Assembly: GCA_938743325.2 (NCBI GenBank)
Contig: OW568899.1
Location: forward strand, 186,001-250,000
Length of the DNA: 64,000 bases
Direction of reading: 5' to 3'
From: Pycnococcus provasolii
Taxonomy: Eukaryota > Chlorophyta > Pseudoscourfieldiophyceae > Pseudoscourfieldiales > Pycnococcaceae
Part shown: positions 3,882 through 21,490 of the stretch, one piece after another
How positions within the stretch are numbered: position 1 is the stretch's first letter
Layout of the letters: each line of letters begins with the position of its first letter
Program-made: the position numbers and the translations under genes
Notes under the pieces: generated by a model
What the model was told of the DNA's origin: nothing
Database searches by the model: none
The model's input: only the letters and a program-made list of their open reading frames with translations

Positions 3882-6800
3882 CTACGCCTTTCGAGGACCC
3901 GTAGGGGGGACCGAGTTCCATTCGACCGGCATCCAACCGTTCGTTTTCATTTGAGCGAAGTCAAGCATGCCACTTCGCAAGCCCACCAAGGCTGATTTCG
4001 CAACACGCGGCTGTACCGATTTGTACGCAACGCGAATCACGCCAGGTCCGTCGAGCTCAAGAATGATCTGGAATGTATTTTTCCAAACACTAGCCGATGA
4101 CAAGCCTTGATTACCTTCCATAGGAAGGGAGACACCCCACGCGGCCATCTGGCTATAAGTCACGACTGCACGCTTCTTATTACCCTCCGTTTCTATCCCG
4201 AAGAAAACATGGCCAGATGTAGCTTCCAAGTCCACAAAGAGTGCCGCAAGTCCGATTTCGTGTTCACCCATAGCGCCATCTTCTCTCTTTCCCGTAAACA
4301 TGAATTTTTGATATGTGTCCATTGCAGATTCCCTCGCTTTTTGCTCGGATTCATGCACCATACCGGAAGGAAAGGTGGGAAATTGCCTTGACGAGGCATC
4401 TCCGAACGAAATGTATCCATTCTTGGATATAATCACAGAATCGTAGGATTTTCCGAACATTTGAAAGGAGCCTTCGAGCGATAGCATATGCAGTGAATCG
4501 CTCCCACCCGACATGTGCAAAGCTGAATGCTGATGATAGTTCGGATAAGGCAGCTCTGGTCCGTCACAATGCACGGGTAGAACATTGCGGGAAATGCTGT
4601 ACGCATGGCCATCACCAATCGGTTTGTAGAAAATCTCGTGGCCAGTGAGATCCGCAACGTCCCACACTATGGACGCGGGCAATCCCATCTTGCTGGTGTA
4701 CCGATAGTAGTCGGTGGAGCTTTGCGGGACGCAAGAACGATACTCATGCTGCAACGCCTCCACGGCGCAGTCGCAAGTTGGCTTACCATCGTCTCCGATT
4801 GAAGGATTGCAAGTTCGCTGCATCTTAATCAATGGGCGACGCAGCTCCATGCCATTCTCGTTTGACGTGGTGGCGGGTCCCATGATCAAAGTGCCCCTTG
4901 GTGGACATTCGTGCAGCGTCTGTTCAGGTGAAGGTGACGGTGCCCATGCGGTGTAAGCAGCGGCGGTGCATGCTTTCGCATTTTGTGATCCGACCACAAA
5001 GTCTTGCATAGAGTCCGGCAGGTGAAGAAGTTTATTTGCGGTCATGGCAACGTTTTGCTCCTCGTCGTGCTCACGTTCTGCGTCTAAGCCAGAGATGTGC
5101 GTTGCCTTCATGTGATGCACCTGATTCGACAATGCAGTCGCCATCACCATGTTATTCACATCCAGGGCACTGGCACTCGGTGACATCTGCAGGGCGATAG
5201 CCATAACTCCTGCGACAAACGCAGCGGCAGGGCTCGTTCCCGAGAAGAGCGTGCGATCACTTGTCGTGAATGGCTTCGCGGCCATGACTGACGTACCGGG
5301 GGCCCACAAAGACACACAGCTCCCCCAGTTGGAAAACAAGCTCTTCGTGTTGTCTATCTGCGTGGCAGCGACGGTGAGGACAGGATATGTCGCGTCAGTC
5401 GTGCTCATGCCGCCGCTGGATTTTCCTGACAAAACTTCCTTTGTTGCAGACGCGGGCGAGTATTGGCACGCATCGGCGTCCTCGTTTCCCGCCGCCACTG
5501 CAACGGGTACTCCAGCCGCGACGAGTTCCTGCACAATCTGGTTCGCGAATTTGTCGCGCGGGCCGATTGCACCGATAAGTGCCACAGCGCGTTCTGTCTT
5601 CGGCAACTTCGAAACATGATTGTGGAGTGCTGCTACAGCATTTCTGAGAGCCAAACCTGGCATCACTGCGAGACCGCCCATCGCCGTAGCAGTTTTGGCA
5701 TCGGGTGATGTGTGCGTGCTCACGATCTTGTACGAGTGCACTGTCGCGGATGGCGCCAAGCCGTATTCTTTGCCAGCAACCACCGATGCCATCATCGTGC
5801 CGTGCCCAGTCATGTCTTGATTGGCGAACCCCGTTCCATCGTCAACCGTAAAGTCGAGCACCGTTCCCTTGCGACCTTCAAGGTCGCTGTGCCCAAAGTC
5901 GACTCCGGAATCTAGGACGAAAATGTGAACGTTCTCGCCTAGACTGGTCGGGGCGTCTTCGTCGTGGCCAATGCGGTCCAAACCCCAGGTGCCATTAGCA
6001 AGCGAGACCGAGTTACCATCCGCACGCAAATCGCGGCGACGAGCTCCCGCGTTCTCAGCCGTAAGACCGTGCATGGCTTGCCTCACTGCCGCAAGTCGTC
6101 GACGATGAGCATCTGCGTCGTGAGCTTGCATATCATCACTAACCACATAGTTCGCGAGCACATCGAGACTTGCAAGCTCCTGAATCGCCAGCAGATTGTA
6201 CTTATTTGAGCACGTCAGCTTCTCTGGGTCACATCTGGCGTCTTTGTGAATGTCGTCGCGAATCTTCTCGATCTCAGCGCGAGTGCCTTTGACAAGAAGT
6301 TGGGAGTTTCCAAACTCCCACGCGCCGCCGGATGACGCGCTCGCTCGATTGAGGCAGTGGGCACTGCGCGCCGTGACGAATTCGCAGAGTTTCCACACCT
6401 CGTCAACTAACGTCCCCTTTGTCAGCTCGAAGAGGAAGGCGGTCGGGCTCTCATCGTCCAGGCTATACAACGCAGCGGCATCTGTCGCGCTCGTGCGCAC
6501 GCTTTGCGTGGTGACTGGTACCTTGCCATTCTTCAAGTCCTTGATAAGCTGGTTATTCTTATCCGCGAGCTTCTGCGCGTTCACCTCCTCCGGGTCCACG
6601 AATCCTACTAGCCCGACATTAGTTTCGTTCAAGGACGAAGACATGACGCCCGAGTTCTTGTTCGTGTGCGTCTCTTTCGTGCCTTCCACAACAGCGTAAA
6701 CGAGCCCGCTGATGGCTCCTAGCATGAGCACCATTATGAACGCGCACACGCCGACAAGGATGAGCAGGCGACGGTTCCTTTGTTTCGCCTGGTGGTAGAG

Positions 6801-7325
6801 ATGTGCAGCCTCTATGAGCTCTTCTCTGTCTAGCGAACCGTTCCCGTCCTTGTCAAATATCTTAAGCTTGTCGTGCATGTGATAAGGCATCACGGCGATA
6901 GGTATCGTGTCGTGCGACGACGCGTGCAAGAGGGACTGGTGCATTTTTAGAATCATCACGAGCTCGGCACCGTCAACGAACCCAGTCTTGTGCCCTTCCC
7001 CTCCAGCTTGGTGCGCCATTTCCTCCAAGGCGTCTCTGAGCTCCTCGGGGAAGTCGCTGATGGAAAGCTTCACGCCGTCGAGCGTCCTGTCGTGGTTAAG
7101 GTGCCCATAGTTCATCTTGAACACGTGGGACCTTGGCGAATGCAAGGCGTGCGTGGAGGCCTTGACTTGACCATATCCGTTTGCCACCACGCCGTGACGC
7201 GACACCGTGACATCTTCCCCGTCGATGCCGTTGCCAAGGAACTTGAACACCTCCGCCGGGTACGTCTCGCCGTCGTCGTGCATGAACGAAGACGGCCCGG
7301 TTTCGTACAGCTTCGCCGGGGCCAT
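3882..7325 (-). CDS. EF-hand, single-TM subtilisin-like protease (S8)
   Basis: A single-exon protein of 1147 residues. Order: N-terminal region (1-150); an EF-hand loop DKDGNGSLDREE (158-169); basic stretch KQRNRR; one hydrophobic segment (about 186-211), giving a type II membrane topology with the EF-hand inside; then a subtilase domain. The triad is visible as FVLDSGVDFGHSD (Asp, about 470), TGHGTMMAS (His, about 507) and FSGTSPAAAFVAG (Ser, about 698), with the oxyanion Asn in AAGNEDAD. The C-terminal 300 residues hold a domain with SVIISKNGYISFGD, resembling the NIDO-like beta domains found beside secreted proteases. A protease held at the cell surface or in the secretory path, with Ca2+ input from the cytosol, is inferred. 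Its EF-hand/TM module is matched by the gene at 16199-21490. Confidence 0.85.
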   Translation of the reverse strand: MAPAKLYETGPSSFMHDDGETYPAEVFKFLGNGIDGEDVTVSRHGVVANGYGQVKASTHALHSPRSHVFKMNYGHLNHDRTLDGVKLSISDFPEELRDALEEMAHQAGGEGHKTGFVDGAELVMILKMHQSLLHASSHDTIPIAVMPYHMHDKLKIFDKDGNGSLDREELIEAAHLYHQAKQRNRRLLILVGVCAFIMVLMLGAISGLVYAVVEGTKETHTNKNSGVMSSSLNETNVGLVGFVDPEEVNAQKLADKNNQLIKDLKNGKVPVTTQSVRTSATDAAALYSLDDESPTAFLFELTKGTLVDEVWKLCEFVTARSAHCLNRASASSGGAWEFGNSQLLVKGTRAEIEKIRDDIHKDARCDPEKLTCSNKYNLLAIQELASLDVLANYVVSDDMQAHDADAHRRRLAAVRQAMHGLTAENAGARRRDLRADGNSVSLANGTWGLDRIGHDEDAPTSLGENVHIFVLDSGVDFGHSDLEGRKGTVLDFTVDDGTGFANQDMTGHGTMMASVVAGKEYGLAPSATVHSYKIVSTHTSPDAKTATAMGGLAVMPGLALRNAVAALHNHVSKLPKTERAVALIGAIGPRDKFANQIVQELVAAGVPVAVAAGNEDADACQYSPASATKEVLSGKSSGGMSTTDATYPVLTVAATQIDNTKSLFSNWGSCVSLWAPGTSVMAAKPFTTSDRTLFSGTSPAAAFVAGVMAIALQMSPSASALDVNNMVMATALSNQVHHMKATHISGLDAEREHDEEQNVAMTANKLLHLPDSMQDFVVGSQNAKACTAAAYTAWAPSPSPEQTLHECPPRGTLIMGPATTSNENGMELRRPLIKMQRTCNPSIGDDGKPTCDCAVEALQHEYRSCVPQSSTDYYRYTSKMGLPASIVWDVADLTGHEIFYKPIGDGHAYSISRNVLPVHCDGPELPYPNYHQHSALHMSGGSDSLHMLSLEGSFQMFGKSYDSVIISKNGYISFGDASSRQFPTFPSGMVHESEQKARESAMDTYQKFMFTGKREDGAMGEHEIGLAALFVDLEATSGHVFFGIETEGNKKRAVVTYSQMAAWGVSLPMEGNQGLSSASVWKNTFQIILELDGPGVIRVAYKSVQPRVAKSALVGLRSGMLDFAQMKTNGWMPVEWNSVPPTGPRKA

Positions 7326-7789
7326 GATGCAAGCGCGTGGTGCGAAATGACAAGGGGGGGAGGAGGACGGGGACGGGGAAGGAGGACACCTTGCACGACT
7401 CCCTTTACTGCACGTGTACGCTCCTAACTAGTCGAACCAGTGCTTCTCAGAATCACGACATCATTTCATTCCTCGCCTTTGATATACATCTCATTTATCA
7501 CGCAAATACAGGCTGGTGGCTGGGATCCCGCCCCTTTCACCTGTCCCTTTCCACGTGGAGGATTGGCCATGGGCCAAGGGTCCCGCACGAAACGATCCGT
7601 CCATATACCTGCATGTGGCGTCACGCAAACACGACGTTTTCGGCGGAAACGGGCTTGAAACCGACTCAAATCAAGCATTCTGGCAGTTTGGTGGTTGGGT
7701 CAATCTTTGTTTGGTTACACAGTTTGGGTATGATACTGTAGTAGGCAACAGGCTGGAGGCAACATAAGACACGCGGATCTTCTTGCAAC
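7326..7789. other. Intergenic, upstream of the subtilase gene
   Basis: This 464-bp stretch lies between two minus-strand genes. I see no coding signal or repeat; it should hold the subtilase promoter and the 3' end of RAD54. Confidence 0.4.
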
Positions 7790-10700
7790 TCACTCGAAGT
7801 CCGAGTCCGATGAATCCGCGTCAACGACAGATGGTCGAGGACGTTTTAGCAACTTGAGCTTGCTGGCTTGAGCACCAGCGGACAAAGGGTCGGATATGTT
7901 TGTTGCCACGGGCGCAAGTGGTGCTGCCGCTGGCTTCTCCTGCTTCGGCGGCTGCGCGGGTGGTGCTGCCGCCGACTTCTCCTGCTTCGGCGGCTGCGCG
8001 GGTGGTGCTGCCGCCGGCTTCTCCTGCTTCGGTGGCTGCGCGGGTGGTGGTGCTGCCGCTGGCTCCTTCACCTTCGTCTTTGCCGCCTCCTTTCCAGGCT
8101 TCTCCGGCTTCTCCCGCTTCGGCGGCTGCGCGGGTGGTGCTGCCGTCGGCTTCACAACATACTCACGCGGCGGTGGCTCGAGTTTGACTTGTTCGCGCAC
8201 CTTCTCGGCCGCACTGTGATGCAAGCGATTAGCCTTCTCCTCTTTCTTCTTCTCCTCCTCGCTCAGCGGCTTACCGTCGACTTTGCAACTAAAGATGAAA
8301 CTCACCTCCGGGTATCCGACGGCAGTCATAGCAGGGTCAGGAACAGAGTGGCACTTGTAGTGCATGCCCCACGCGCTCAGATCATCTTCGGTTGGCTTAC
8401 CCACCTGTTCCGACAGCGGCACATACCGGTCTTCCGGAGGCCTTCGAACGATTGCCATAGACTCCGCTGCAGGCTGCACCTCAACGGCTGGCATCTCTTC
8501 GCCGTTCTCTTCGTCCTCATCACCCTCAGTCTTTGGTGCCGGCGGCGGTGGCGGTTTGAAGCTCTTGTCCTGCCCCAGGCTGTCGTACGTCGAGCTCCAT
8601 GTCTCCTCGTCAAGTTTGAAAAGGTCTTTCAGCTCATTCGCGCTGAATGCGGACAATGCCATCTTTGCAGGATCACCGCCCTTTCCTTCCTCTTCCTCTT
8701 CGCTACTTTCCTCTTCCTCTTCTTCTTCCTCCTCCTCCTGCTGGTCCACATCCTCGTCATCCGCATCCTCTCCGTCGGAATCCTCTCCATCTAGGTCCAT
8801 GGCATCATGCACAGTCTTCTTCGCAGGCGCCGCATCGTCCTCGGCAGCCTGACCAACCATATTCTGCAGACCCTCCTTGCTGAGCTGGCGCTGGAATACC
8901 TTCTCCTCGATGGAGCCGGATGCCACGAAACGGTACACGAATACGCGCTTTTTCTGCCCATCACGCCAGACACGGCCGGCAGCCTGCTTGTCATTCGCTG
9001 GATTCCAGTCCGGATCGAATAGTACGAGGCGATTCGCGCCGACGAGATTAAGACCACATCCACCAGCTTTTGAGCTAAGCAGGAATGCAAACTGGTCATT
9101 CGCCGGATCGTTGAATTCCCTCACTAGCTGCATGCGCTTCTTGATCGACGTCGAGCCATCGAGACGCACATACGGATAGTTGCGATTCTCACAGAGACAT
9201 TCGAAAAGGTCGAGAGCCGAGGTGTAGTTGCTGACGAGCACAACGCGGTCATCTGTGTTAGCGCGCATGATGTCGAGAAGTTTCGTGAGAACCGCCATCT
9301 TGCCGCTTTCCATTTCCCAGCCAGGAGTGAGGCTTGCCTTAAGCATGCCTACCGATGCACTAGGCTTGGGCTTTCCTCCGCGTCCACTTGCATATTTGGA
9401 CTGGAACGAGCGATTCGCCGCAAGGAGCTGCTTCAAGAGCTTCGACTTCTGATCCCTGCCTCGAGCCGCGTTCGGATCTGCCGCACATGCAGCGGCAGCC
9501 GCAGCAGCAGCCTGCTCGGCGGCGCGCGTAGCTTGCTCAAAGAATGGCTGCAGCTCCTCATACTGGCCCTTCGAGTCGTTGACGACGTCGTCGTAGATAA
9601 GGCGTGGATGATTGCAGATCTTCTTGAGCGTGGTGATGGCCGAGAGCACCATCGTCTGCTTGCCAGTGAGAGCATGCTTCATAGCCTTCGTCTCGAGGAA
9701 CTTGCGGTAGAGGTTCTTCTGAAAGTCCGTCAGGCCGACGCAGACGATTTCCACAACCTTCGGCGGAAGGTGGTCACTCAGCACCTTGTTGGTGCGGCGC
9801 AGAATGAAAGGCTTCACGAGATGGCTAAGCTCGGCGCTACGCTCGCTGCCAAGTTTGCGGTCGGCGTCGCTGCTGTCAGGCTCGCGCCCTCGCAATATCG
9901 CGACCTCGTACCTGCGCCGAAACTGCGAGACCGTGCCAAGCACGCCAGGGTTCGTGAAGTGAACCATGGAGTAGAACTCGTCGAGTTTGTTCTGCATCGG
10001 TGTGCCAGACAGCAGCACACGGCGGCGACAAGGCAGTTGCATCAGCGCCTTGTTTGTTGCCGTCTGTCCATTTTTCAACCGATGCGCCTCGTCACAGATG
10101 AGCAGATCACACGCGGAGGCGGCACATGGACCGCCCTGCCGGGCAGCGGCGAGGAAGGCGGCAGGATCGTCCTTCTTCTTCATGCCGCATCGAAGGAATC
10201 GCTTGTGGTGAATGCGGAATGTCTCGTACGACAGGATCATCACCTGGTGTACAGCCTGCGGGTGGATGAAGTCGCTGATGGCACGCATGACGAGACTCTT
10301 GGTCGACTCGCACAGAGGCAGCGTTTTGACGTGTACCTTCTTGTCCCATGTTAGCCACTTGTTCACCTCGGCGTCCCAGTTGTTCACTAGAGATGTTGGG
10401 CAAACAATGATGACTCGCTTCGCCATTGGTGTCTCGGACGTGCGTATTCCCTTGTTCAAGAGCGTATACAGCAGCGCGATGCCCTGCAGCGTTTTCCCGA
10501 GGCCCATGTCATCGGCAAGGATGCAACCGCAGCCGTCGTACAGGCCACGGTCGCGGCGCATTCCACTCACGCACTCGAACATGAACTTGACACCCTCGCG
10601 CTGGTGTGGACGAAGCCAGCGCGAGATCATCGTGTCCATCGTAAGCTCCACCGCATCCTCGGGTGGTGGCATGGGCTTCACCACCATCTCCTCTGCTACC

Positions 10701-11578
10701 ACCTCGCCGTTCGCCTCCTTCTTCGCCTTTTTTTTCGACGTTTCCTTCTTCGCAGCCTCGTGTTCCGCCATCCAGGTCACAGGGTTGTACAGCTGCAGCG
10801 GCTCACCTGGCGGAGGGCCCTTGTCTTCCTCCTCCTCCTCCTCCTCGTCTCCGCTCTCTCTCCACTCTTTGTCCGAACCGCCAGCGTCGGTCGTGTCACG
10901 ATCTGACTGACTTACCTTGAACGGTCGGCTCATCGCCCACGGAATAAAGCGGCGCCTCTGGGCAAGCCTGCGTTGAAGCGTCAGCGAGCCTTCCGGCGGA
11001 CACCCACTCGGAGGCTTGAATGGCTGCCAGAGGATGGGGTGCGGATTCTGCTGCAACACGGATGGCGGTAGGTATGCGTCGTCGCTGCGAGTCGCCAGAG
11101 TGTTGCTTTTGAGAGCGGCGATGTTCATCGCCTTCATCTTCGCCACTTCCGGCGCGAGTGGTTTGTCGTCCTCCTCCACCTCTGGGTCGAACTCACCGTC
11201 ATCGTCGTCGTCGTCGTCGTCGTCGACGGCGTCGGTGCTGCCTTTGCCATCGGCACCGCCGTCACCACTGGCAGGTTGCTTCTCCTTTGCGACTGCCTTC
11301 TCCTCCTTCTCTTTCGCCTTTGCAGCCAATTTCTCCTCCTTTGCCTTCGCCTTTGCAGCCGCCTTCTCCTCCTTCGACATCTCACGTGACTTACGCTCCT
11401 CCTCCTGCTCCTCCCACGCATCGCGCACCTCAGTTACCGAGCGCAGCTTGAACGCACCAGTCCTTTTGTCATAGTTGCACGCGTCGTTCGGGCAGAAGAA
11501 GCCGTCTTCGCCGTAGCTGTCGTCGACGCGCTCCAGGAACTTGGAGTTGCATCGCCAGCACTTGACGCGCATCGCCAA
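7790..11578 (-). CDS. RAD54: RAD54-like SNF2 DNA translocase with N-terminal zinc motif
   Basis: A 1262-residue SNF2 ATPase; RAD54 moves along duplex DNA and works with RAD51 in homologous recombination. Residues 7-34 form a zinc-ribbon-like CWRC...FFCPNDAC. A Lys/Glu coiled stretch and an Asp run follow, then the RAD54-type PPEGSLTLQRRLAQRRRFIP. Helicase motifs: ILADDMGLGKT (about 350), DEAHRLKNG (about 493), LLSGTPMQN, AAGRVWRDGQKK (about 866). The C-terminal HCD-like region with VSFIF supports RAD54 over other SNF2 classes. RAD54 is usually 750-900 residues; the excess is the long N-terminus, acidic runs after the ATPase, and a C-terminal PPKQEK repeat. No intron is visible. Confidence 0.88.
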   Translation of the reverse strand: MAMRVKCWRCNSKFLERVDDSYGEDGFFCPNDACNYDKRTGAFKLRSVTEVRDAWEEQEEERKSREMSKEEKAAAKAKAKEEKLAAKAKEKEEKAVAKEKQPASGDGGADGKGSTDAVDDDDDDDDDGEFDPEVEEDDKPLAPEVAKMKAMNIAALKSNTLATRSDDAYLPPSVLQQNPHPILWQPFKPPSGCPPEGSLTLQRRLAQRRRFIPWAMSRPFKVSQSDRDTTDAGGSDKEWRESGDEEEEEEEDKGPPPGEPLQLYNPVTWMAEHEAAKKETSKKKAKKEANGEVVAEEMVVKPMPPPEDAVELTMDTMISRWLRPHQREGVKFMFECVSGMRRDRGLYDGCGCILADDMGLGKTLQGIALLYTLLNKGIRTSETPMAKRVIIVCPTSLVNNWDAEVNKWLTWDKKVHVKTLPLCESTKSLVMRAISDFIHPQAVHQVMILSYETFRIHHKRFLRCGMKKKDDPAAFLAAARQGGPCAASACDLLICDEAHRLKNGQTATNKALMQLPCRRRVLLSGTPMQNKLDEFYSMVHFTNPGVLGTVSQFRRRYEVAILRGREPDSSDADRKLGSERSAELSHLVKPFILRRTNKVLSDHLPPKVVEIVCVGLTDFQKNLYRKFLETKAMKHALTGKQTMVLSAITTLKKICNHPRLIYDDVVNDSKGQYEELQPFFEQATRAAEQAAAAAAAACAADPNAARGRDQKSKLLKQLLAANRSFQSKYASGRGGKPKPSASVGMLKASLTPGWEMESGKMAVLTKLLDIMRANTDDRVVLVSNYTSALDLFECLCENRNYPYVRLDGSTSIKKRMQLVREFNDPANDQFAFLLSSKAGGCGLNLVGANRLVLFDPDWNPANDKQAAGRVWRDGQKKRVFVYRFVASGSIEEKVFQRQLSKEGLQNMVGQAAEDDAAPAKKTVHDAMDLDGEDSDGEDADDEDVDQQEEEEEEEEEESSEEEEEGKGGDPAKMALSAFSANELKDLFKLDEETWSSTYDSLGQDKSFKPPPPPAPKTEGDEDEENGEEMPAVEVQPAAESMAIVRRPPEDRYVPLSEQVGKPTEDDLSAWGMHYKCHSVPDPAMTAVGYPEVSFIFSCKVDGKPLSEEEKKKEEKANRLHHSAAEKVREQVKLEPPPREYVVKPTAAPPAQPPKREKPEKPGKEAAKTKVKEPAAAPPPAQPPKQEKPAAAPPAQPPKQEKSAAAPPAQPPKQEKPAAAPLAPVATNISDPLSAGAQASKLKLLKRPRPSVVDADSSDSDFE
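7905..8045. repeat. 42-bp tandem repeat inside RAD54-like gene
   Basis: About three near-identical 42-bp units encode 14-residue repeats of the type PAAAPPAQPPKQEK in the C-terminal tail of the RAD54-like protein. A more diverged unit lies near 8100-8150. This is a coding minisatellite in a probably disordered tail. Confidence 0.75.
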
Positions 11579-11902
11579 CGAAGTGTGCGAGAGGCGAGTG
11601 CGCGGAGTGACAGACAGGTTTGAAATTGGGAAGACAGGCGGGGAGGGAAATCAGGGAATGCCTGCTTCGAGGCCAGGCCGCAAAGCAGGAAAACCCCGAA
11701 TATCTCGGGAAAGGAAAGGCTGGCAAAGTAGTCGGGGTTCCACGTGTGCTCCCCAGCTGGAGCCGTGCTTGATAGCGCTCCCTACTATGCGATGGCCCGC
11801 CCAGCATAGGCGGTGGTGCCTGGTGTGAGTGCAGTACCAACTACTACCGGGTAAGAGACGTTGCAAATTTTGGTACGTAAATTTATAAAAATAGTCTACT
11901 CG
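11579..11902. promoter_or_regulatory. Upstream region of the RAD54-like gene
   Basis: A 324-bp gap between two minus-strand genes. It contains AACCCCGAAT at 11692-11701, followed by ATCTCGGG and a further TCGGGGTT about 30 bp on, the same box found in other gene-upstream regions here. Promoter role is inferred from position and recurrence. Confidence 0.4.
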
Positions 11903-13075
11903 TCACAATGAGCCGCACTTCTTCAAGCAGTAGTCGACGCCGTGCTCGAAGTACTCCTCGCGGGAGACCCAAAAGTCGTCGCGGTTCTTCATGATGTCCG
12001 CCAGCACGGCGCCGCCGAGGAACACCATGTGCTTTCGACGAGGCGGATCCTCGATGCGCAGCTTGAACTTCCGAAGGCCCTCCTTCTTCCCGCCGAGAAC
12101 TTTGTCAAGGTACAGCTTCTTCAGGTCGTTCTCCATGCGGCTGGGAATTCCAGGGTACATCGTCGAGCCGCCGCTCATCACCACGTGACTGTACAGCTGC
12201 ATCCTGTTGTCGATGTCCATTTCCTGGCAGCAGTCGAACACAATCTGCGACATGCCGCCGCCCTCGATGCCCACCAAGTCGGGTCGAAACAAGCACTCCG
12301 GCGCCTGAAAGCGCTCCGCCCCAACCTTGATGACGCGCCCGTCAGGCAACGTGTACTGCTGCACGAGGTGCGTTGTCTCCTGCGCAACGCGATTTTCCTG
12401 CTCGAAGTCGTGTGCAACGTAGCACATTTTCTCCTTAATCTGCCTAACCGTGTCGAAGTCGGCCGTGCTGTTAAGGTTGTACCCGCGGCGCTGAAGCAGC
12501 TCGCAGAGGTGGCTGGTGACGTGCCGTCCAGCGACGTTAAGGCGCTTCGTCAAGTGAGGGAAGGAAAAGCCTTGCACGACAGGAACGGCGTGCGTCACGC
12601 CGTCACCGCTGTCGACGACAAGCCCCGTGAGCAGTCCCTGTGCGTAGAGTGTAAGCACCGCCTGTATTTGTATGAAGCATCCCTGGAACCCGTACTTTTC
12701 GAACATCGTTGACAGCATCTTCTCGCGGTTCTTCTTCGGGTTGAGCGGCGGGTCGGTGAGAAGGATGTGGCACTCCTTCGGGTCCACCTGCAGCACGTCG
12801 TTGAAGGTGTGATCCCAGATGAGCCCCATGTCGTCCCAGTCCTGCACGATACCGTTCGTCACTGGGTATGTCACCTCGAGCTGGTGCCGCTGAGCGGCGC
12901 ACTCCGCTCCGACGACGACATCCTTGATGGCCTCCGTGCCAATTTCCTGTTCGTATCGCAGAAGCGGCGTTCCTACCATGCAAGGGAACTGCGCGCGGGG
13001 GAAGTTGTCGCCCGCGAACCCGCACTTGACGAATCCCGTTCCGTTGTCGCACACCACCACCTGTTTCGCGGGCAT
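11903..13075 (-). CDS. ARP2: Actin-related protein 2 (Arp2/3 complex)
   Basis: A 390-residue actin-fold protein matching ARP2 end to end; human ARP2 has 394 residues. Diagnostic stretches: [17 protein letters not shown] at the start, [85 protein letters not shown] and [22 protein letters not shown]2 pairs with ARP3 to form the first two subunits of a new branched actin filament. The ATP-binding phosphate loops (DNGTG and DSGDG) are intact. One exon. Presence of ARP2 argues that the alga keeps the Arp2/3 complex, which several plant and algal lineages have reduced. Confidence 0.95.
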
Positions 13076-13418
13076 GCTGGCGAACGAGGCGAGGAGGCCC
13101 GTGTGAGGCGTGTGGGCCCGTTGAGATGACGGTTACCAAAAAAAGCAGGGGAACGGAGATCACGTGAAACGCAGAGGGACCAATATTGTATCCCCGAAAT
13201 ATTACCTCTCGGACCAAAGGCCTAGACCACACAGAAAACGCCTTAAGTCGTGCGCTCCGCCACGGCAAGTGCACGGGTACGTGCCGCGTTCCGTCTCGAG
13301 CCGCGGGCGGAGGCCGTTGTGTACGTGGCGGAGGTGACCAGGTGGGAGACGGTTGGGGTGCACTTGTCGCGCGAGCGTCTTTACAAATTTGTGATTGTCT
13401 GAACGAATTTGTGACGTC
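13076..13418. promoter_or_regulatory. Upstream region of ARP2
   Basis: A 343-bp gap between the minus-strand ARP2 and TMEM107 genes. It contains a CCCCGAAATATTACC box at about 13193-13207 close to the ARP2 start and nothing else that I can interpret. Confidence 0.3.
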
Positions 13419-13942
13419 TCAACCTGCGTAGTCCAGGACGCGGAAGCGGAACACCGCGAGCGCGACGAACGACTCGGCGATAGCGGGGACGAGCGCGAAA
13501 ATGATAAAGCACCACGAATATGTACCAATAGGCCAACCCTGGCTGACAAACAGGCCGACGAGACATGTGCCCAGGAAGTGCGCCAACACCTGCAGCGCAT
13601 TCAAGGCGGGAAAGAAGAATGATGTGCCCGACAGCACGCCAACGAACTGCAAACCGAGACAAATGACCGCCGCATATGCCAAGCCCTCCACCCTGTGATT
13701 ACGTACGTGTGTGCGCGTGTTGGTTAGTGGAATATGAGTTAGTCCGTATGTGTGCTGCTCCTTTCTCCCAAAGCGTGTCGGCTCAACTTCACGTACTCGC
13801 TTCTTGCTCCTGCAAAGTCGTCGGCGCCCGACTTGTGTGCCACGGCTGAAGAGTCGTACAATACGGTCAGCGTGGCAATGAGGTGCGTGACCATAAGCAT
13901 GAAGCGCGCGGGCACCATGGTCTCGTTGGCGGACGCGTACAT
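13419..13942 (-). CDS. TMEM107: TMEM107, ciliary transition-zone membrane protein (two exons)
   Basis: Exon 1 (13942-13797) encodes MYASANETMVPARFMLMVTH and on to a GTACGT donor; exon 2 (13692-13419) follows a CACAG acceptor and encodes GLAYAAVICLGLQFVGVLSG and the last membrane segments. Intron 13693-13796 is 104 bp, and joining in phase 2 gives 139 residues, the length of human TMEM107 (140). Four hydrophobic segments and the (M)VP[AS]RF start match the family. TMEM107 belongs to the MKS module of the transition zone, which gates entry into cilia and flagella. The Met at 13918 (MVPARF) is an alternative start. The intron placement is inferred from frame and splice consensus. Confidence 0.8.
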
Positions 13943-14283
13943 GGCTGAAACCCACTGACGAGTGAAAAATGGAGGACGTCCCTAACCGACGGGGCGACTT
14001 CGGGGACGAACTTGCGCGCGAAAAAAGGCGAAAGGGACATACTTAGAGCTCCTCGCGAGCAAGACCAGCCACTCCACGGGGGATCCCCAGCAGCGATCTC
14101 GCGCCCGTAAAGCAGTTGGCGGTCTGTCATGACGTCACGTGTTTGGTCGGGCAGCGGCCGCGGGCAAGACCGGTGAGCCTTGACGCACAGGCCCTCTGGA
14201 GAGGATATCTCCTGTATCTGATGACGCCCGATCGGCTTTGGCCGCGCGTGCACACACTCCCATCACACGCACTACACAGCGAC

Positions 14284-15507
14284 ATGGTCGGCGTGGCCTT
14301 GCGACTAAGACGCACGCACTGGCGACTCAACGTCGTCGTGGCGCTGTGTGCATCCGCTCTGTGGACGGTGAGTGCATCGGCACAAATAGAAGGGGAGGGT
14401 GGTGGTGAAACCTCTGAGGAGTACCGGCAGTTTATGGCGGTGTTCCAGGACGCGTCAAGATTTGCATCCAGAGGACAGACGGAGGAGGCAGTGGCCGGCT
14501 TTGCGACAGCAGTTGCACTCTTTGAAAAGAGCCGCAAGGATTCGGGAAAGGAGGTCGAGAGGAGCGGTTTCGCGGCGCACGTGTACAACAGCTACGCGCG
14601 CACGCTGGCGGACGCCAACAAGTGGGAGCTTGCAGGCAAGATGTACAACAACGCGGTGCGTGAGGCGGAGGCTAGTCTCAAGAGACACCGTAAACGCGAA
14701 GGAAGCCTGATGTCTTTTGGCGACGGCGAGGCACTCGATCGCTACGACCTCGAGGAACTCGAGAAGGCTATGGAGACCAAGGCGAAGGAAGCGGCGGCGG
14801 CGGTGGCAGCTGACGACACGCCGAAAAAGAAGAAGAAGAAGAAGAAGAACAAAAAGGGTGCTAGCCCATACGAAATTCCGCCGGAGAGTGGGTTGACACA
14901 CGAGGATATGAAGGAGCGTTTCGAACTCGAGCAGGTGCACAGCGCGCATATGGGAATTGCTGCGATGAAGGAGGCACGCGAAGATCTCGAGGGCGCCGTG
15001 GCCAGCTACGAGCGCGCTCGTAAATTTTCTCGCGATCGCGACTCCCTGGCTCGGACTTGCAAGGCACTCGGCGTGCTCCACATGCGCCGCAACGACATGA
15101 ATGGGGCGATGGATATGCTCACGGAGTCGACAGACCTCGTTCCGAACATTCCGAAAGGCAAGAGCAACTTAGCGCTTGTTCAGCACAAGCAAGGCATGTA
15201 CCTCGAGGCGAAGGCGACGTTCCAAGATGCGGTGGAGCTTGAGCCACGCAACGCGAATGTGATTGCCAACTATGGCACGCTTTTGGCGCAGATGGGAAAC
15301 TGGAAGGATGCTCGCGAGGCATTCCACCGCGCGTTGACGGTGGACCCCAGTCACAAGCACGCGTCTACGCAGCTTGCCCAGATTGAGGAGCTGGAATCGA
15401 GCGGCGAGGAGCCCGTGAATGTGTTTGCGCACGTTCCCGAGCCCAAGTTTCGGTCGAAGATGGCGCGCGTGGGTCGCGTCGCGGGCATTCCCGGGTACCG
15501 CACTTGA
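14284..15507 (+). CDS. Secretory-pathway TPR protein
   Basis: A 407-residue protein if started at the ATG at 14284; the frame stays open upstream to 14116, but this Met gives a clean signal peptide (LNVVVALCASALWTVSASAQ). The body is helical with TPR-like units near residues 50-130 and again over the last 170 residues (GKSNLALVQHKQGMYLEAKA, ANYGTLLAQMGNWKDAREAF). A run of nine Lys-rich residues (KKKKKKKKNKK) splits the two blocks. TPRs bind other proteins; a luminal or secreted scaffold role is inferred. The family was not recognised. Divergent from TMEM107 with about 340 bp between starts. Confidence 0.65.
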   Translation: MVGVALRLRRTHWRLNVVVALCASALWTVSASAQIEGEGGGETSEEYRQFMAVFQDASRFASRGQTEEAVAGFATAVALFEKSRKDSGKEVERSGFAAHVYNSYARTLADANKWELAGKMYNNAVREAEASLKRHRKREGSLMSFGDGEALDRYDLEELEKAMETKAKEAAAAVAADDTPKKKKKKKKNKKGASPYEIPPESGLTHEDMKERFELEQVHSAHMGIAAMKEAREDLEGAVASYERARKFSRDRDSLARTCKALGVLHMRRNDMNGAMDMLTESTDLVPNIPKGKSNLALVQHKQGMYLEAKATFQDAVELEPRNANVIANYGTLLAQMGNWKDAREAFHRALTVDPSHKHASTQLAQIEELESSGEEPVNVFAHVPEPKFRSKMARVGRVAGIPGYRT

Positions 15508-16198
15508 CCTCGAGCCTTCCTCGTCCTGCACTCCTGCTATCATCTTGAACAAAGAGGTGGTGACTTAATTTTAGTAACGCACGTATTTATCTTTCTTTTA
15601 TTATATTTAACACTCTGCCGAGCGAGACCCCCCGGCAGCCATCACCTTCCCCTTTAGCCATCACACGAACCCCTTCAGTCCACCCATAATTCATCGTCTT
15701 CACCTTCGCTTCTACAACATCTCTCTGATCACCGCGGTTCGTCATCCACTCATCCTCAAGAAGCACTCAGCACTCCACGTCGTGAAAACTCGTCCAGCGG
15801 CAGTGCTCATCATCATCGTCATTATCATGCTGGCTTGCGCACAACAACACCAACAAAGTCGTGGATGGAGATACGTGTCACGCGGCACAGGTGTGTGGGG
15901 TCGCTTCGCGTTGGATTGGGCTTGAGCAATTTCGCGCGTCTGGAGATTGCGCTCGTCACGCTGAGAAGAACAACGCGGCCGGCCTCGAGCTTCAATCTGA
16001 CTGTTGACGGCTTCCCTCTTGAATGAGTGAGTGAGAACACACTGCTGACTGAGGTGAACAACAGGTATAGATCTAGATCTGTGCGTGCGTGCGTGCGTGC
16101 GTAAAGGAAAGATAGATGCCTGTTCTTTTTTTAAAATAACATACTGCTCTCTTCACTCCCATGCCTCTCCCAAGCCTAAGCCATATTTGTCGTGAAAA
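15508..16198. other. Convergent intergenic region with GTGC microsatellite
   Basis: This 691-bp gap lies between converging genes. It contains AT-rich likely 3' ends and a (GTGC)n microsatellite at 16081-16102. The open frames here look unlike protein. Confidence 0.5.
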
Positions 16199-19100
16199 TT
16201 AGACGTCAAATCCAATCAAGTCGCGTGCCAGCCATCTCAGATAGCCAAGGCTTCCAAATACCTCGCCTTCGTCAAACAGTGCGCGATTCGCCATGCGTGC
16301 ATTCGTCTCCGGCATAAGCAAGTCAAATAGGCGAGCTGGAAAGTAGCCCACCGGCTGCAGCACACGTACATGCGACGTATAAACAGAATGCTTCACACCA
16401 TCAACAATCACAGTATCGTCGTACGTGACCGGTGTGTACATTCCGATCGAAGTCTTGCTCACCACCTTTGTCACAGGTGAAAGCATCTCCTGGCCGTCGC
16501 TTCCATATGCAAAGACATAGTCGCCAACTTCCAGTTGCGAGGCCATCACCTCCTCCGTGGACGTGCACTTCATTCCATTCATGCTCGCGCATCGGAATGT
16601 GTGGTGCCGGCCAGAAAGCGTGCTGCTCCTGCCGCCGTGGTCGCCAAACGTAATGGTAAGAGTCGTCGAATCCTCAGCCGTTGGGTGATGGTGCCCGAAC
16701 GCATACACTCGACTCCAGCGGCCATTTCCACTCATCACCGCGTCTCCAACTCGCAGATGCGACATCGGTACGAGCCGCCCGCTGGTAGATGGACACCACG
16801 ACGATGATGCCTGCGCCGCGTTCGCCGCGTTCTCCTTCTTTGCGCCGTCTTCCGCTTCTCTCACGCACACATTCGCATTGCCTGGGAAACAAGATGAAGG
16901 ATTCTGATCCTCTTTCCACATCAAATAACCGTTCATTTTTGGTTGAGGTCTTGCGGTCATGCCACCTATGATATCACCTTTGTACGTCACTGTCTTTTGT
17001 CTATTGCCAGCGTCATATGTCGTCGTCACGTCAGGTCTCGCAGGCCCATACGCACAGTGTCTGATAGCCTTCGCGACCGCTTTCGCTAATTTGTTTCCAC
17101 CATACTCAAGGTTTTTACCAAATCCTTCAACTTCTAATCGGTGCATCAAGCCGAAGTTGAGCGAATGATTTTCCTTGTCATAATCGGCACGGTCACCGAA
17201 AAATGTATACATTCCCGGGTATGCGGATCGCTTGCAGTAAATTTCTCCCGTGTCTGGTTTCCCTTGCAGTGCACGACGACGTTTACCGCTGTATGCTCGA
17301 CTTCGGTAGTGGTCGCTATCTGCTTCGGGTCCATCTTTATGAGCCGACAGTGGCCAGTAGAACGCACCACCGCCATAGTACCACTCGTTGTACCAGCTCT
17401 CTATCATGTCTCCCGTCACTCGGTAACATGTAGTTTTGTCATAAGCAACACGCTCTTTGAAGAAGTCCGCATAATCTGAGAGACTCCAATTCCCTTTGCG
17501 CATCTCGAGACTGTACTGATAGTCTTGGTACTTTGGCGCGATAAGTCCATCCTTCTTCTGATCGATAGCGTCAAAAATGCTTTCCATGATATCAATGGTT
17601 AATCCATGATCCGCCTCTTTTGTCAGGTAAGTTCCAAAATGTTTTGGTTGTCCAAGCGCTTCGACCTGCAAACCTGGAAGTCCGCGTTGGTCCAATCGAG
17701 CAAAATCGTAGAACATAGGATCCTCCTTATGATAATTTCTGTTATATTTCGTGCCGATTGGTTCTTCCCACTCAAAGTAACAGTCCGCTAGGCTGTAAGA
17801 TCGATCGAACAGAGGATCGTATGTGTCATTTACGCTATATCCTCTTGCTTGCTTGAACATCTCTTTGCCACAATAAGCTTTATCGTTTCCGTACTTGTTC
17901 TGGTCAAAGCAACAATACTTTTTCTCGCCGCTATCGCAGCGAGCTTTCCGGAGCTCGTCTTCCATCGCGTTCAGATAATTGTCTTTGCCAGGATTCCAAT
18001 TATCCCAGAGAGGGTTGGAATATGTCTTCACTGTCTGTGATGACGATGATCCCGATGCTTGATTCGTGAGCGATATGTCATTCGTGGCACAGAATCCCTC
18101 GCACAGTGCACGATCCTCTGTACCTCTTTCCGCTTCGCATTTCGAACACTCAGCAGAATCGCACGAAGCGTAGCATTGAAAGCAGTCCTTGTACTTGACA
18201 CTGGTAGCCTCCAGACATGTGCTCATGATCTTTGTCCAATCTTTTGATATGTCCATCAGGTTTCCAACTCTTGCACCAGCCTTCATGTAAGTTGTCTGAA
18301 AGAAGTTGCAAGAGCACATCTCGTTGAGCACACTAGAGCACTTTATACAGGCGAGATCATCACGAGCATCGCGACAATGCCGGCAAACCGCCTCACTGTC
18401 GCACTGACTCGCTTTGCACTGCGGCATCTCTACTAAATCTGAGCCACAGTTCGTTTCGTAGACATCCTCGCAATCGCAGCCCGTTTTATCCTTGCACGCA
18501 ACGCAAGCACCTGCAGCACATTTGCTTGCACAAATGTCACAGAAATCATAATTCTTGCACGTTGACTCGTCGCATTTCGGAAGCGGAGGAGGAGGTGGTG
18601 GAGCTGGTGGTGGAAGCTTAGGCGCATCCGGAATTGTTTGCTCAGTAGGTTCCTCCTCAACATAATGGATCATAGTCCCGGGCGTATCACCTAATGGTCG
18701 CCAAACGGGCGTTTCGTACACGTTATAGCAAGACCAGAGGAGGCACACCTCGACATACGCACCGCCCTCCACGAACAAGTGATACCCTTTGTCATACATC
18801 TTGGAAGAGCTGCACTCGTCGCCACCCGGTAGGTAGATGAAGGCATCCAATGCGCCCCCCAATGTTCCAGACAGACCTCCGCCCAAGCACTCAACGAAAA
18901 CCTCAAGTGAGAACGACCCCTTGAAAAATTTGCGATTCCTGCATCCATCGATGTTTCCACCGTTTCCACCTGATCCGCAAAATCCTACTGTAAAACCAGC
19001 CTTGCAGAGACCTAAAAAGTCTACCGCAAGTGTAATCTCAATGCAGCCACCACCTTGCACGCAGCCATCATATGCAAGTGGGTCGGAACTCGGGTCATCT

Positions 19101-21490
19101 GGGTCTGAGAGTTTCTCATCACCATCTGGCGTCCAATCGACGAAGAGAGATCCACCTACGGCAATCTTAAGTGGTGGTAAAATAGAGGGGAAGCCCTTCG
19201 ATGAAAAGCTGACTTGAATATAGCAAAGGCTCTTTTGAGGAGGAAACTCAGTGCCTGCGTCCATTGATGCCACATCGCCCTCAAATCGAGGGAAGAGCGT
19301 GCTAAATCCAAGATCAAGCTGGAAAATATCGCCTCGCTTAATCTTGCCCATTTTTTGGGTGGGTACTGGCATTGTAAACGTCATAGCATCATACTCGGTT
19401 TTCTTATCCTCAACGTAGCGATTTCCGCAGCATAAGTACGGCGATCCAATAGGAACATTCTTGGTATATGATGCAGAGTCAAGTAGTCTTAGCTGTCGTC
19501 GCTGTCCTCCACCATTCGTAGCAGTAGAAGCATTCCCTGTTGCCGCTGACATGTACTTCTCCGCAAGAATTTTGTTGTCCTCTAGATGCTTGAGATTCAT
19601 CTCCTGTATCCTTGTACGATACCCGTCGTCAGCGCCGGGAAGCAGCGAAGTGCTGCGAAGTATGTGCTTTGCGCTAACAGTGTTGTCGCCGCCACTGTGA
19701 CATTTTGCCGGCTTAGCAAATATGCCGTCGCTAAGCATGTCCTCAGATGTGACATTTAAGTTCCATTCTTCGAACTGCGTGCGGCCCATCAGCATTCCCG
19801 TGTCCAAGTCGTACAATTCAACCCTGTAGGGCAGAAATTCAAAGCCTTGCGTATTCGCCGTGGCAGAACGGTCGTGGTAGATAAACACTGTTCGATCAGA
19901 TTTAGATTCTGCGATATTATCGTTCGCCGTTCGCACGCGGATGGTAAATCGCCGCTCTTTCACGCCGCCGTCGAGCAAGGTTGTCCCCTCGTATGCTGCT
20001 TGCACGTTATCGAGATTGTACTTCCCTGCCTGCACGGTGCTGTTGAGTTGTTGATCCAAGCACCAGTAGCCCGTCTGATAAAGAAGGCCGTTGTTGTCGG
20101 CATACGTCTTCGTCTGCGTTTCTTTCGCCGCAGACGCCGCATCTGCAGAGAACGACGGTTTGTCGCTCTGTCGTTTCGCCGTTTCCGTTGTCGGTGTCAT
20201 GAAGAAGTTCTTGATCAGGCCTGGCGTGTTTTGGATCACGACCAGCTTGTAGTCCTTTGTCCTCGAGTCGAAGTTCAATTCCTCGCGGATGAGCTGATTT
20301 TCCACGTCCATGTAAACCCAGCCGCTTGCGCCTGCATAGTGAAACCCGTTCTCCTCTACGATCGTAGGATCCGACGTGTCGCACTTCACCTCCTTGCTTT
20401 CGCCGTGCAAGTTCGTGCACGACTCCATTTTCCTCACTCTTGCAGTTGCAAGCATCGGGAAGGAAGGCTTGGGACCGTCCACCGACTCCTCGAAGCAGCC
20501 GTACTTCTCGGCAGGAATTTGGTTGAACAGCGCGATGAGCTCGTAGAAGTTCAGCAAACGCCTGCTGCCTTCGGCCGCCGTATTGAAGCCAGCCTCCGCG
20601 AACACGTCGCCCACATCGTTGGAGAAGCTCATCGCCTCGCCGTCAATCGTGATTCTACCGATGGGCGTGATGAGGATCACCACCGTGCCGTACAGCGACG
20701 CCTTGCGTGCGACGCGCGCGTAGCCTAGCACATCAACCCTCAAGCTCATCAGGCCGCTCTTCACCTCGAAGCTCTTCATACTGGCGAAGTGCGCGTTCGA
20801 CATGCACGACTTGAGCCGCGCCGTGTACGTGCGCTCCTCCGCGACGACGGTGAGCTTGTTGCCGGTGGCAGAGGCTGTCTGCGCATCCTCCACGACGGCG
20901 CCATCTTCGCTCGACAGAGACGCCTTTGCCGCCGCCTCGTCGCGAGGCGCGAGGGCACCGTTTACCACCTTGAGGTCCGTAGACGACGTCTGAACAGCCT
21001 CATTGGTTCCCGCGACACGCATGACGGGGTCTTGCTTGGTCACCTCGACTTGCTTCGTGAGTTCCGTGACGGCCACCGACAGGCCGAAGATCGCTAGGAG
21101 CAGCAGTACGCATATGGCAAGTACGGCAGCGGCGACCTTTCTCATGAGGCGCACTTGCGCCTGCGACGAGAGCTCTTGGCGCACCGCTCCGCGAAACTCA
21201 TCTTTGTCTAAGAATCCGTTTCCATTCTTGTCGTACGTTCGCAGACGTCGCCCCACCTCACCGCTTCCTCCCTGCGAGCCAAATAAAGCTTCCACGGGAA
21301 CTCCGTGCGGGAAGAGATCCCAGAAGGAGGAACCACCATCGGCCGCCGCCAACGCCGACTTCTCCAGCTTCTCCTCCCCTGAAACGAATCCGAGATCAAC
21401 GTCACCTGAGGCGGCGGCCGCTACGGCCACGGGAGCGGCCGCCGCCTCATCCGACTCCCCCGAACTTCCGAGAGACGCCGGCGCCATCAC
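16199..21490 (-). CDS. Giant EF-hand, single-TM protein with hedgehog-type Hint domain
   Basis: One exon of 1763 residues. EF-hand loop DKNGNGFLDKDE (87-98), then a strong membrane segment (about 119-143), so the EF-hand is probably cytosolic and some 1600 residues lie outside. The outer part has unassigned beta-rich regions, a Gly-rich segment, a Pro stretch (PPPAPPPPPPLPK), and a Cys-rich block near 1000-1100 (CDICASKCAAGACVACKD). The last 200 residues match a Hog/Hint self-cleaving domain: start Cys in SSWCPSTSGRLV (about 1564), LRVGDAVMS, LSGRHHTF, LEVGDYVFAY, and YTPVTYDDTVIVDG matching the hedgehog APLT..GT.vVd pattern. Hint domains cut the chain before their Cys and can link the product to a nucleophile. 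Cleavage here is inferred. Shares its EF-hand/TM module with the subtilase at 3882-7325. Confidence 0.8.
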   Translation of the reverse strand: MMAPASLGSSGESDEAAAAPVAVAAAASGDVDLGFVSGEEKLEKSALAAADGGSSFWDLFPHGVPVEALFGSQGGSGEVGRRLRTYDKNGNGFLDKDEFRGAVRQELSSQAQVRLMRKVAAAVLAICVLLLLAIFGLSVAVTELTKQVEVTKQDPVMRVAGTNEAVQTSSTDLKVVNGALAPRDEAAAKASLSSEDGAVVEDAQTASATGNKLTVVAEERTYTARLKSCMSNAHFASMKSFEVKSGLMSLRVDVLGYARVARKASLYGTVVILITPIGRITIDGEAMSFSNDVGDVFAEAGFNTAAEGSRRLLNFYELIALFNQIPAEKYGCFEESVDGPKPSFPMLATARVRKMESCTNLHGESKEVKCDTSDPTIVEENGFHYAGASGWVYMDVENQLIREELNFDSRTKDYKLVVIQNTPGLIKNFFMTPTTETAKRQSDKPSFSADAASAAKETQTKTYADNNGLLYQTGYWCLDQQLNSTVQAGKYNLDNVQAAYEGTTLLDGGVKERRFTIRVRTANDNIAESKSDRTVFIYHDRSATANTQGFEFLPYRVELYDLDTGMLMGRTQFEEWNLNVTSEDMLSDGIFAKPAKCHSGGDNTVSAKHILRSTSLLPGADDGYRTRIQEMNLKHLEDNKILAEKYMSAATGNASTATNGGGQRRQLRLLDSASYTKNVPIGSPYLCCGNRYVEDKKTEYDAMTFTMPVPTQKMGKIKRGDIFQLDLGFSTLFPRFEGDVASMDAGTEFPPQKSLCYIQVSFSSKGFPSILPPLKIAVGGSLFVDWTPDGDEKLSDPDDPSSDPLAYDGCVQGGGCIEITLAVDFLGLCKAGFTVGFCGSGGNGGNIDGCRNRKFFKGSFSLEVFVECLGGGLSGTLGGALDAFIYLPGGDECSSSKMYDKGYHLFVEGGAYVEVCLLWSCYNVYETPVWRPLGDTPGTMIHYVEEEPTEQTIPDAPKLPPPAPPPPPPLPKCDESTCKNYDFCDICASKCAAGACVACKDKTGCDCEDVYETNCGSDLVEMPQCKASQCDSEAVCRHCRDARDDLACIKCSSVLNEMCSCNFFQTTYMKAGARVGNLMDISKDWTKIMSTCLEATSVKYKDCFQCYASCDSAECSKCEAERGTEDRALCEGFCATNDISLTNQASGSSSSQTVKTYSNPLWDNWNPGKDNYLNAMEDELRKARCDSGEKKYCCFDQNKYGNDKAYCGKEMFKQARGYSVNDTYDPLFDRSYSLADCYFEWEEPIGTKYNRNYHKEDPMFYDFARLDQRGLPGLQVEALGQPKHFGTYLTKEADHGLTIDIMESIFDAIDQKKDGLIAPKYQDYQYSLEMRKGNWSLSDYADFFKERVAYDKTTCYRVTGDMIESWYNEWYYGGGAFYWPLSAHKDGPEADSDHYRSRAYSGKRRRALQGKPDTGEIYCKRSAYPGMYTFFGDRADYDKENHSLNFGLMHRLEVEGFGKNLEYGGNKLAKAVAKAIRHCAYGPARPDVTTTYDAGNRQKTVTYKGDIIGGMTARPQPKMNGYLMWKEDQNPSSCFPGNANVCVREAEDGAKKENAANAAQASSSWCPSTSGRLVPMSHLRVGDAVMSGNGRWSRVYAFGHHHPTAEDSTTLTITFGDHGGRSSTLSGRHHTFRCASMNGMKCTSTEEVMASQLEVGDYVFAYGSDGQEMLSPVTKVVSKTSIGMYTPVTYDDTVIVDGVKHSVYTSHVRVLQPVGYFPARLFDLLMPETNARMANRALFDEGEVFGSLGYLRWLARDLIGFDV

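Follow-up and report, generated by a model that had tools for sequence, protein, structure and literature searches.

Do two large membrane proteins that share their inner parts and carry quite different outer machines belong to one family, and is Ca2+ inside the cell thereby tied to an enzyme outside it? The question is raised by two reverse-strand genes in a 64,000-nucleotide stretch of the Pycnococcus provasolii genome (contig OW568899.1 of assembly GCA_938743325.2, positions 186,001 to 250,000; referred to below as the window). Each encoded protein has an EF-hand loop and, directly after it, one strong hydrophobic segment; the outer part is a subtilase in protein 1 and a 1600-residue exterior ending in a Hint domain (Pfam, 3.9e-12) in protein 2, as a preliminary description made from the DNA letters had proposed. 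That description regarded the two as members of a lineage family in which a cytosolic Ca2+ loop is hard-wired to varied outer effectors. Our analysis bears out the family and argues against the hard-wiring: on the reading that we favor, to which we assign a probability of roughly 0.55, a constant Ca2+-binding carrier presents swappable cargo that would be released by cleavage at the motif R-R-(x)-L (RR(x)L).

A gapless EF-hand and membrane module

The genome searched comprises 32.3 Mb in 46 contigs. Queried with the EF-hand/transmembrane (TM) modules, it returned 61 matches for protein 1 and 42 for protein 2; each module retrieves the other (E 5.2e-6 and 3.7e-6), and their likeness therefore reflects homology. 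With one query or the other, at least 55 distinct loci are found at E ≤ 0.01, a lower bound because the genome search scores the best candidates only. A lineage family built on a single EF-hand/TM module with differing outer parts is thus present, and the genome search that the preliminary description had suggested returned further members in which the same module is joined to DUF285, subtilase, kringle, pentapeptide, PAN and Hint domains. Altogether 43 members could be read as open frames and 13 further ones as module stretches, giving 56 modules; the 43 include C33:92937, whose E value of 0.078 lies above 0.01 and in which the register described below is present.

This register is gapless throughout the 56 modules: an EF loop of 12 residues is followed by 44 residues and then usually by the signature [ED]x[ST]K[ED], the lysine of which is kept in 53 of 56. 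With no pattern imposed, the MAFFT alignment of 27 diverse modules is exactly 88 columns wide and free of gaps. Not one of the 2464 residues in the 44-residue stretches is a proline, nor is any of the 1320 in the 30 modules that are less than 90% alike (mean identity 34%). In the linkers between loop and membrane, which at 17 residues in protein 1 and 20 in protein 2 agree with the length of about 20 first described, prolines number 0 in 752 residues against 31.7 expected (42 of the 43 members; C18:353673, with an unusual loop, is left out here and in the flank charges below). Loop residues D1 and E12 were required by the search patterns, as was a suitably placed hydrophobic stretch in the case of the 13 modules added later; D1 and E12 are likewise the only invariant columns in a pattern-free MAFFT alignment of the 43 members, and position 3 is D, N, S or T and position 5 is D, N or S in 56 of 56 modules. 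Chance likeness between two EF-hand proteins is ruled out by the reciprocal matches together with the gapless register, and the earlier concern that the EF-hand and TM segments might be unrelated, with no common linker, is answered by that same common register.

The residues flanking the membrane segment (15 on each side) have a mean net charge of +3.5 on the EF-hand side and −0.8 outside, the EF-hand side being the more positive in 42 of 42 members. Cysteines occur at 0.48 per 100 residues inside versus 2.01 outside (43 members), and sequons at 0.25 versus 0.45. Given the subtilase, Hint and kringle domains outside, a type II orientation is likely. The 44-residue stretch probably forms one helix running from the EF loop through the membrane, as AlphaFold (AF2) models predict for both window proteins (Table 1), with block values of the predicted local distance difference test (pLDDT) of ~41–80 in the helix region.

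Beyond the membrane, the members fall, in our own grouping, into class A (23 besides the two subtilases), class B (10, including protein 2) and class C (7), with C33 ungrouped. Class A members mostly have two canonical EF loops and a juxtamembrane domain of ~110 residues, mostly ending in RRRLL or similar; the class B counterpart is related and closes with RRLLxLYxLVGLFN or similar, and class C has a third version. Profile comparison supports one ancestry of these domains in classes A, B and C (hhalign E 3e-4, 1.7e-5 and 2.4e-4, versus 0.13–0.55 for reversed profiles). In the two subtilase members this beta domain was not found (hhalign E 0.21–0.35 versus the other classes).

Some features of the genomic arrangement may be recorded here. 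Four pairs of members are arranged divergently, head to head, with their modules ~1.6–2.5 kb apart (C3:997930/999781, C18:353673/355868, C37:264062/266797 and C21:621985/624839); both partners belong to class C in the first three, which would fit the duplication of one such pair. The modules at C5:1151, C25:2079, C44:3051 and C9:6121 lie within ~6.4 kb of contig starts, which may be chromosome ends. One of the 56 modules, that of L068 (C22:234540-235397), is of class A type, and its frame departs from the family sequence at the TM end; with DUF285 repeats downstream in another frame, it looks like a broken member.

Swappable cargo, seam and a putative cleavage motif

Pfam recognizes DUF285 in the outer parts of 14 of the 43 members, Peptidase S8 in two, and Hint, pentapeptide repeats, kringle and PAN in one each, the rest being regions without a Pfam name; because many outer parts are partial, these counts are lower bounds. 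Enzymes are thus a minority of the recognized cargo (2 S8 and 1 Hint against 14 DUF285). The genome’s 57 DUF285 matches form 22 loci in our grouping. At 19 of these the repeats come directly after a module encoded on the same strand, and at 18 the two share one open frame; if the carrier reading is true, the DUF285 repeats reported from marine picoalgae have a definite membrane carrier in this genome. Neither window protein has DUF285 repeats (Pfam). The module is found on 2 of the 20 S8 loci of the genome, on C39 (protein 1) and C19 (L049). The Hint domain of protein 2 is the only complete one found in the genome, where one further weak match falls below cut-off. A degraded second copy of it, in pieces 70% and 43% identical and with a stop codon, lies at C28:225128-225555. 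With one complete copy, one broken copy and one weak match, Hint as a family-wide outer module is ruled out.

A sharp transition from constant to variable sequence is seen in 12 class A members, whose 66 pairs were chosen for >85% identity across the 100 residues that precede RRRRL. In register, identity is ~93% (protein) and 96% (DNA) up to RRRRL and ~10% and 30% after it; by 10-residue bins, amino acid identity is 0.81–1.00 before the site, 0.47 in the first bin after it and ~0.10 from the second. The break falls 0–11 residues past the leucine in 64 of 66 pairs and at 23 in one, and none was found in one. Downstream of this seam, 57 of the 66 pairs have common blastn blocks with a median register shift of 153 nucleotides, and the carrier is therefore joined to cargo that appears shuffled; 5 of 489 downstream matches begin within 40 nucleotides of both seams. 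Upstream of the start codon, blastn finds matches in 36 of the 66 pairs; in 31 of these the match is continuous with the gene and extends 58–628 nucleotides beyond it (two of the 12 members have a 5′ flank of only 130–149 nucleotides). A copied unit beginning at the start codon, where an ungapped comparison falls off, is thereby ruled out.

The RR(x)L motif itself is strongly enriched. The 43 outer parts (24,886 residues) contain 71 distinct sites versus 5.6 in shuffles, distributed over 40 of the 43; with overlapping readings counted, the numbers are 95 versus 5.3, and for RR(x)LL 50 versus 0.46. The control motifs behave otherwise in the same outer parts (reversed L(x)RR, 8 versus 5.2; KK(x)L, 20 versus 12.3), and 17 other long open reading frames (ORFs) of the window contain 13 RR(x)L versus 9.7 in shuffles. 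The sites match the consensus of site-1 protease, R/K-x-x-L/S/T, for which RRLL is given as an example (PMC3252376), and would be candidates for cutting.

On the carrier reading, a type II single-pass protein would combine a cytosolic EF-hand with a proline-free helix through the membrane. Most members would continue with a juxtamembrane beta domain with RR(x)L at its end and interchangeable cargo past the site (DUF285 repeats, pentapeptide repeats, Hint or unnamed regions), and two members with a subtilase placed after a propeptide-like stretch with RR(x)L sites instead of the beta domain. The constant part would carry the cargo to the membrane and display it there until it is freed by a cut at RR(x)L, made either by a site-1-type protease of the secretory pathway or by the subtilase of the member itself. 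Cytosolic Ca2+ would act on the carrier, by influencing its trafficking or clustering or by exposing the cut site via the stiff helix, and not on the mature enzyme.

Displayed, shed or hard-wired

The module could also be a signal-anchor with a sorting role, in which the EF-hand is structural or constitutively Ca2+-bound and the outer repeats serve as fixed adhesins, never released. A single-pass anchor with a positive inside flank is what such proteins would show, and the commonest recognized outer domain, DUF285, is known in bacterial bitopic membrane proteins and in prasinophytes (PMC2996958). This explanation, which we consider unlikely, leaves two things unaccounted for: the orientation-specific enrichment of RR(x)L, absent from the 17 other window ORFs, and the coincidence of the motif with the constant/variable boundary.

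That boundary could instead be the mark of a variable surface-antigen system, in which copies of the carrier spread among loci and are fused there to new exteriors that evade viruses or grazers, Ca2+ and cleavage being secondary. The EF loop, helix and TM segment have a median DNA identity of 91% in class A pairs (22 of the 23 class A rows could be anchored for this comparison, and 20 for that at the seam), and the sharp in-register loss of identity after RRRRL and the mosaic 3′ parts are also as expected. Classes B and C, however, are divergent, and class B relatives from metagenomes retain long stretches of the exterior; we hold this account, too, to be improbable.

The two subtilases bear most directly on the proposed hard-wiring of Ca2+ to an outer protease. 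The full catalytic triad ascribed to protein 1 is kept, together with an oxyanion-type N614, within a Peptidase_S8 match (PF00082) at 1.4e-21, above cut-off, which makes it a predicted protease; its serine motif, SGTSPAAA, is unusual, the other family subtilase (L049, C19:310000-314300) having SGTSMATP and, where protein 1 reads GHGTM, GHGTH. The two are 38% identical in the protease, 28% in module and pro-region and 28% in the C-terminal part, and L049 has a kringle between its RRRL sites and the protease. In both, a propeptide-like stretch, HRRRL and a second RRRL/RRRDL site lie between TM segment and catalytic domain, and in protein 1 only 11 residues separate ARRRDL from the mature-type start GTWGLDRI, a keratinase-like kind of start. 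The propeptide-like stretch of protein 1 has a beta-alpha pattern by eye only and gives no Pfam match up to E 10. S8 enzymes are, on maturation, cut from what lies N-terminal to them. Ordinary subtilase maturation would thus separate the protease from the module, and a hard-wired protease is less likely because the part lost would here be the whole Ca2+ module. Inside-out signaling, in which cytosolic Ca2+ moves a rigid helix and switches a still-attached outer protease or domain, would need precisely the gapless, proline-free 44-residue link that the 56 modules have, and it agrees with the single predicted helix and the kept loop ligands; set against it, besides the sites just described, are the same stalk under outer parts of unrelated families and a juxtamembrane part in the subtilases with no detectable relation to that of the others, which together render it distinctly improbable.

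Several observations weigh against the carrier reading that we prefer. As regards Ca2+, the expectation that the EF segment would bind it comes from the loop residues only, and EF-hand_1 is matched at E ≤ 0.01 in only 35 of the 43 members, which counts against the likeness being more than chance. The AF2 models, built from nine alignment rows, are of low quality (mean pLDDT 48 and 46), and the hhalign probabilities for the juxtamembrane domains are only 40–78%. Only 12 of the 23 class A members show the sharp seam, in pairs that are not independent of one another; homology past the start codon makes the copied unit larger than the coding part of the carrier; and a median dN/dS (nonsynonymous to synonymous substitution rates) of 0.63 over the 160 codons before the seam means that, among these young copies, purifying selection on the constant part is not visibly strong. 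As for the motif, 3 of 43 outer parts have none, and the first RRLL of class B, standing within the conserved RRLLxLYxLVGLFN, could be structural. Of eight other S8 frames, moreover, four contain RR(x)L at least once, among them L008, with RRRRL 26–27 residues ahead of its protease Pfam match, and the motif may therefore be a wider feature of secreted proteins in this genome. A processing enzyme was not found among the 2 of 20 S8 loci compared with the PDB, the best matches being of deseasin MCP-01 and proteinase K types, and eight S8 domains matched NCBIfam only below its curated cut-offs.

More tentatively, and in our judgment with the odds against it, the carrier may be a stiff Ca2+ sensor that has been copied genome-wide and fused to new cargo, its seam being recombination boundary and cut site at once, with Ca2+ in the cytosol setting the time and place at which enzymes, adhesive repeats or Hint are shown or shed. 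If the carrier reading is true, one Ca2+-binding anchor serves many outer machines in a green alga, the constant/variable seam is also a cut site, and Ca2+ signals are linked to what the algal cell surface shows or sheds.

The window proteins and comparison with known systems

The coordinates of both window proteins are given in Table 1. Protein 2 starts with GTG, with ATG as the next codon (21487), and has 1762 residues when read from the ATG. Its EF-hand_1 match is above cut-off and its Hint match scores 46.7 bits against a cut-off of 29.7; both CFPGNANV and LSGRHHTF are present, containing what we take to be the start cysteine and the block-B histidine, respectively. In protein 1 the EF-hand falls below the Pfam threshold, and a second EF-hand is, by eye, degenerate. 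Its C-terminal region has no Pfam match of note.

Table 1 Features of the two EF-hand/TM proteins, in window positions
Feature	Residues	Position	Strand	Basis or remark
Protein 1: EF-hand/TM carrier with subtilase cargo	1147 amino acids	3882..7325	−	Open frame, Pfam; paralogue L049 alike over most of length
Protein 1 EF-hand loop DKDGNGSLDREE	158–169	6819..6854	−	Pfam, sequence
Protein 1 proline-free linker	17 residues	6768..6818	−	Predicted helix 167–217, continuous with TM
Protein 1 single TM segment	187–213	6687..6767	−	EF-hand side positive
Protein 1 post-TM signature EGTKE		6672..6686	−	Family [ED]x[ST]K[ED]
Protein 1 propeptide-like stretch between TM and protease	~290–400	6126..6458	−	Position and by eye
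Protein 1 HRRRL, candidate processing site 1	407–411	6093..6107	−	Common to L049
Protein 1 ARRRDL, candidate processing site 2	428–433	6027..6044	−	
Protein 1 Peptidase S8 domain, keratinase/PCSK9/proteinase K-like	463–736	5118..5939	−	Pfam and PDB sequence matches
Protein 1 catalytic residues	D472, H508, S698; oxyanion-type N614	D472 5910-5912, H508 5802-5804, S698 5232-5234	−	
Protein 1 C-terminal region	940–1120	3966..4508	−	Common to L049; NIDO-like by eye only
Protein 2: EF-hand/TM carrier, long exterior, C-terminal Hint	1763 amino acids	16199..21490	−	Open frame, Pfam
Protein 2 cytosolic motif FWDLFPHG		21302..21325	−	FW..NP.G in most class B and C members
Protein 2 EF-hand loop DKNGNGFLDKDE	86–97	21197..21232	−	Pfam, sequence
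Protein 2 proline-free linker	20 residues	21137..21196	−	Predicted helix 95–152 spans linker and TM
Protein 2 single TM segment	118–141	21065..21136	−	
Protein 2 post-TM signature ELTKQ		21050..21064	−	
Protein 2 juxtamembrane beta domain	~222–310	20558..20824	−	Related to class A and C versions
Protein 2 SRRLL	308–312	20552..20566	−	Predicted coil end/helix start after beta domain
Protein 2 second RR(x)L site GQRRQL		19490..19507	−	
Protein 2 third RR(x)L site KRRRAL		17267..17284	−	
Protein 2 Hint domain	1570–1726 (Pfam)	16310..16894	−	Hint-type start SCFPGNANV at 16868-16894

Elsewhere in the window, two light-harvesting genes stand head to head (56191-56725, reverse strand; 57292-58065, forward strand), the first of which matches in two pieces, suggesting an intron or a break. 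The light-harvesting protein of the window matches green-type LHCI proteins; the genome has 52 chlorophyll-binding protein matches, and two clusters of light-harvesting genes, of six copies each with identical profile scores, lie at C31:133072-142609 and C31:360395-366434. The uL3 of the window is closest to what we take, from the names of the PDB entries, to be plant-type uL3.

Relatives outside this genome are few. Alignment search gave seven matches, including metagenome records P0003–P0007 and a record named Symbiodinium sp. KB8 (P0008), which could represent either a genuine dinoflagellate gene or algal contamination of the assembly; P0006 combines an EF-hand of class A type with an exterior of class B type. 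P0009 has several EF-hands but not the register and was dropped. Single-protein searches for relatives returned only the proteins themselves, two queries of a viral contig collection returned none, and comparison of the L049 protease with prokaryotes gave one locus. Judged by titles and abstract beginnings, no paper on such an EF-hand carrier family is apparent among those that searches of the open-licence literature listed.

Rhomboids are polytopic intramembrane proteases with six or more TM segments. Neither window protein has a rhomboid match in Pfam, and each has one strong TM segment. The layout had been described as unfamiliar, which does not stand for the combination of cytosolic EF-hands with a membrane protease: in RHBDL3, EF-hands are reported to lie in the cytoplasmic N-terminal domain, and the protein may be calcium-regulated (PMC12476590). 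RHBDL3, or Rhomboid-4, is the nearest case known to us and appears analogous in placing cytosolic N-terminal EF-hands on a membrane protein with protease activity; it differs in that the proteins described here have one TM segment and an outer subtilase in 2 of 43 members only, probably cut free.

For the outer parts, the closest precedent is PARCEL/DUF285, the BspA-like 25-residue repeat, tracts of which form the DUF285 cargo described above. PARCEL/DUF285 ORFs are reported from Ostreococcus, Micromonas and Phaeodactylum with various predicted membrane topologies and are argued to be mobile; the main text of that paper does not contain the term EF-hand, nor does the portion available describe an EF-hand carrier or an RR(x)L boundary (PMC2996958). 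DUF285 is also reported from an algal giant virus (PMC10720644). The catalytic domain of protein 1 resembles proteinase K-type subtilases (S8A) and PCSK9, its best matches being keratinase, PCSK9, aqualysin and proteinase K, and the start TWGLDRI is as in keratinase; here, by contrast, the propeptide-like stretch is preceded by a membrane anchor and the anchor in turn by an EF-hand, and L049 has a kringle insert. The C-terminal Hint of protein 2, with its cysteine start CFPGNANV, is of the Hedgehog type, and differs in ending a 1600-residue exterior tethered by an EF-hand/TM carrier.

The overall plan may have a counterpart in bacteria. Bacterial polymorphic toxins have a constant N-terminal carrier, a sharp boundary at a likely processing motif and swapped C-terminal parts. 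The proteins described here seem to follow the same plan of constant carrier, boundary motif and variable tip, by analogy, no homology search having been made; they differ in being eukaryotic and single-pass, with a Ca2+ loop and no sign of toxic cargo. If the carrier reading is correct, they would be a eukaryotic counterpart of such constant-carrier/variable-tip systems.

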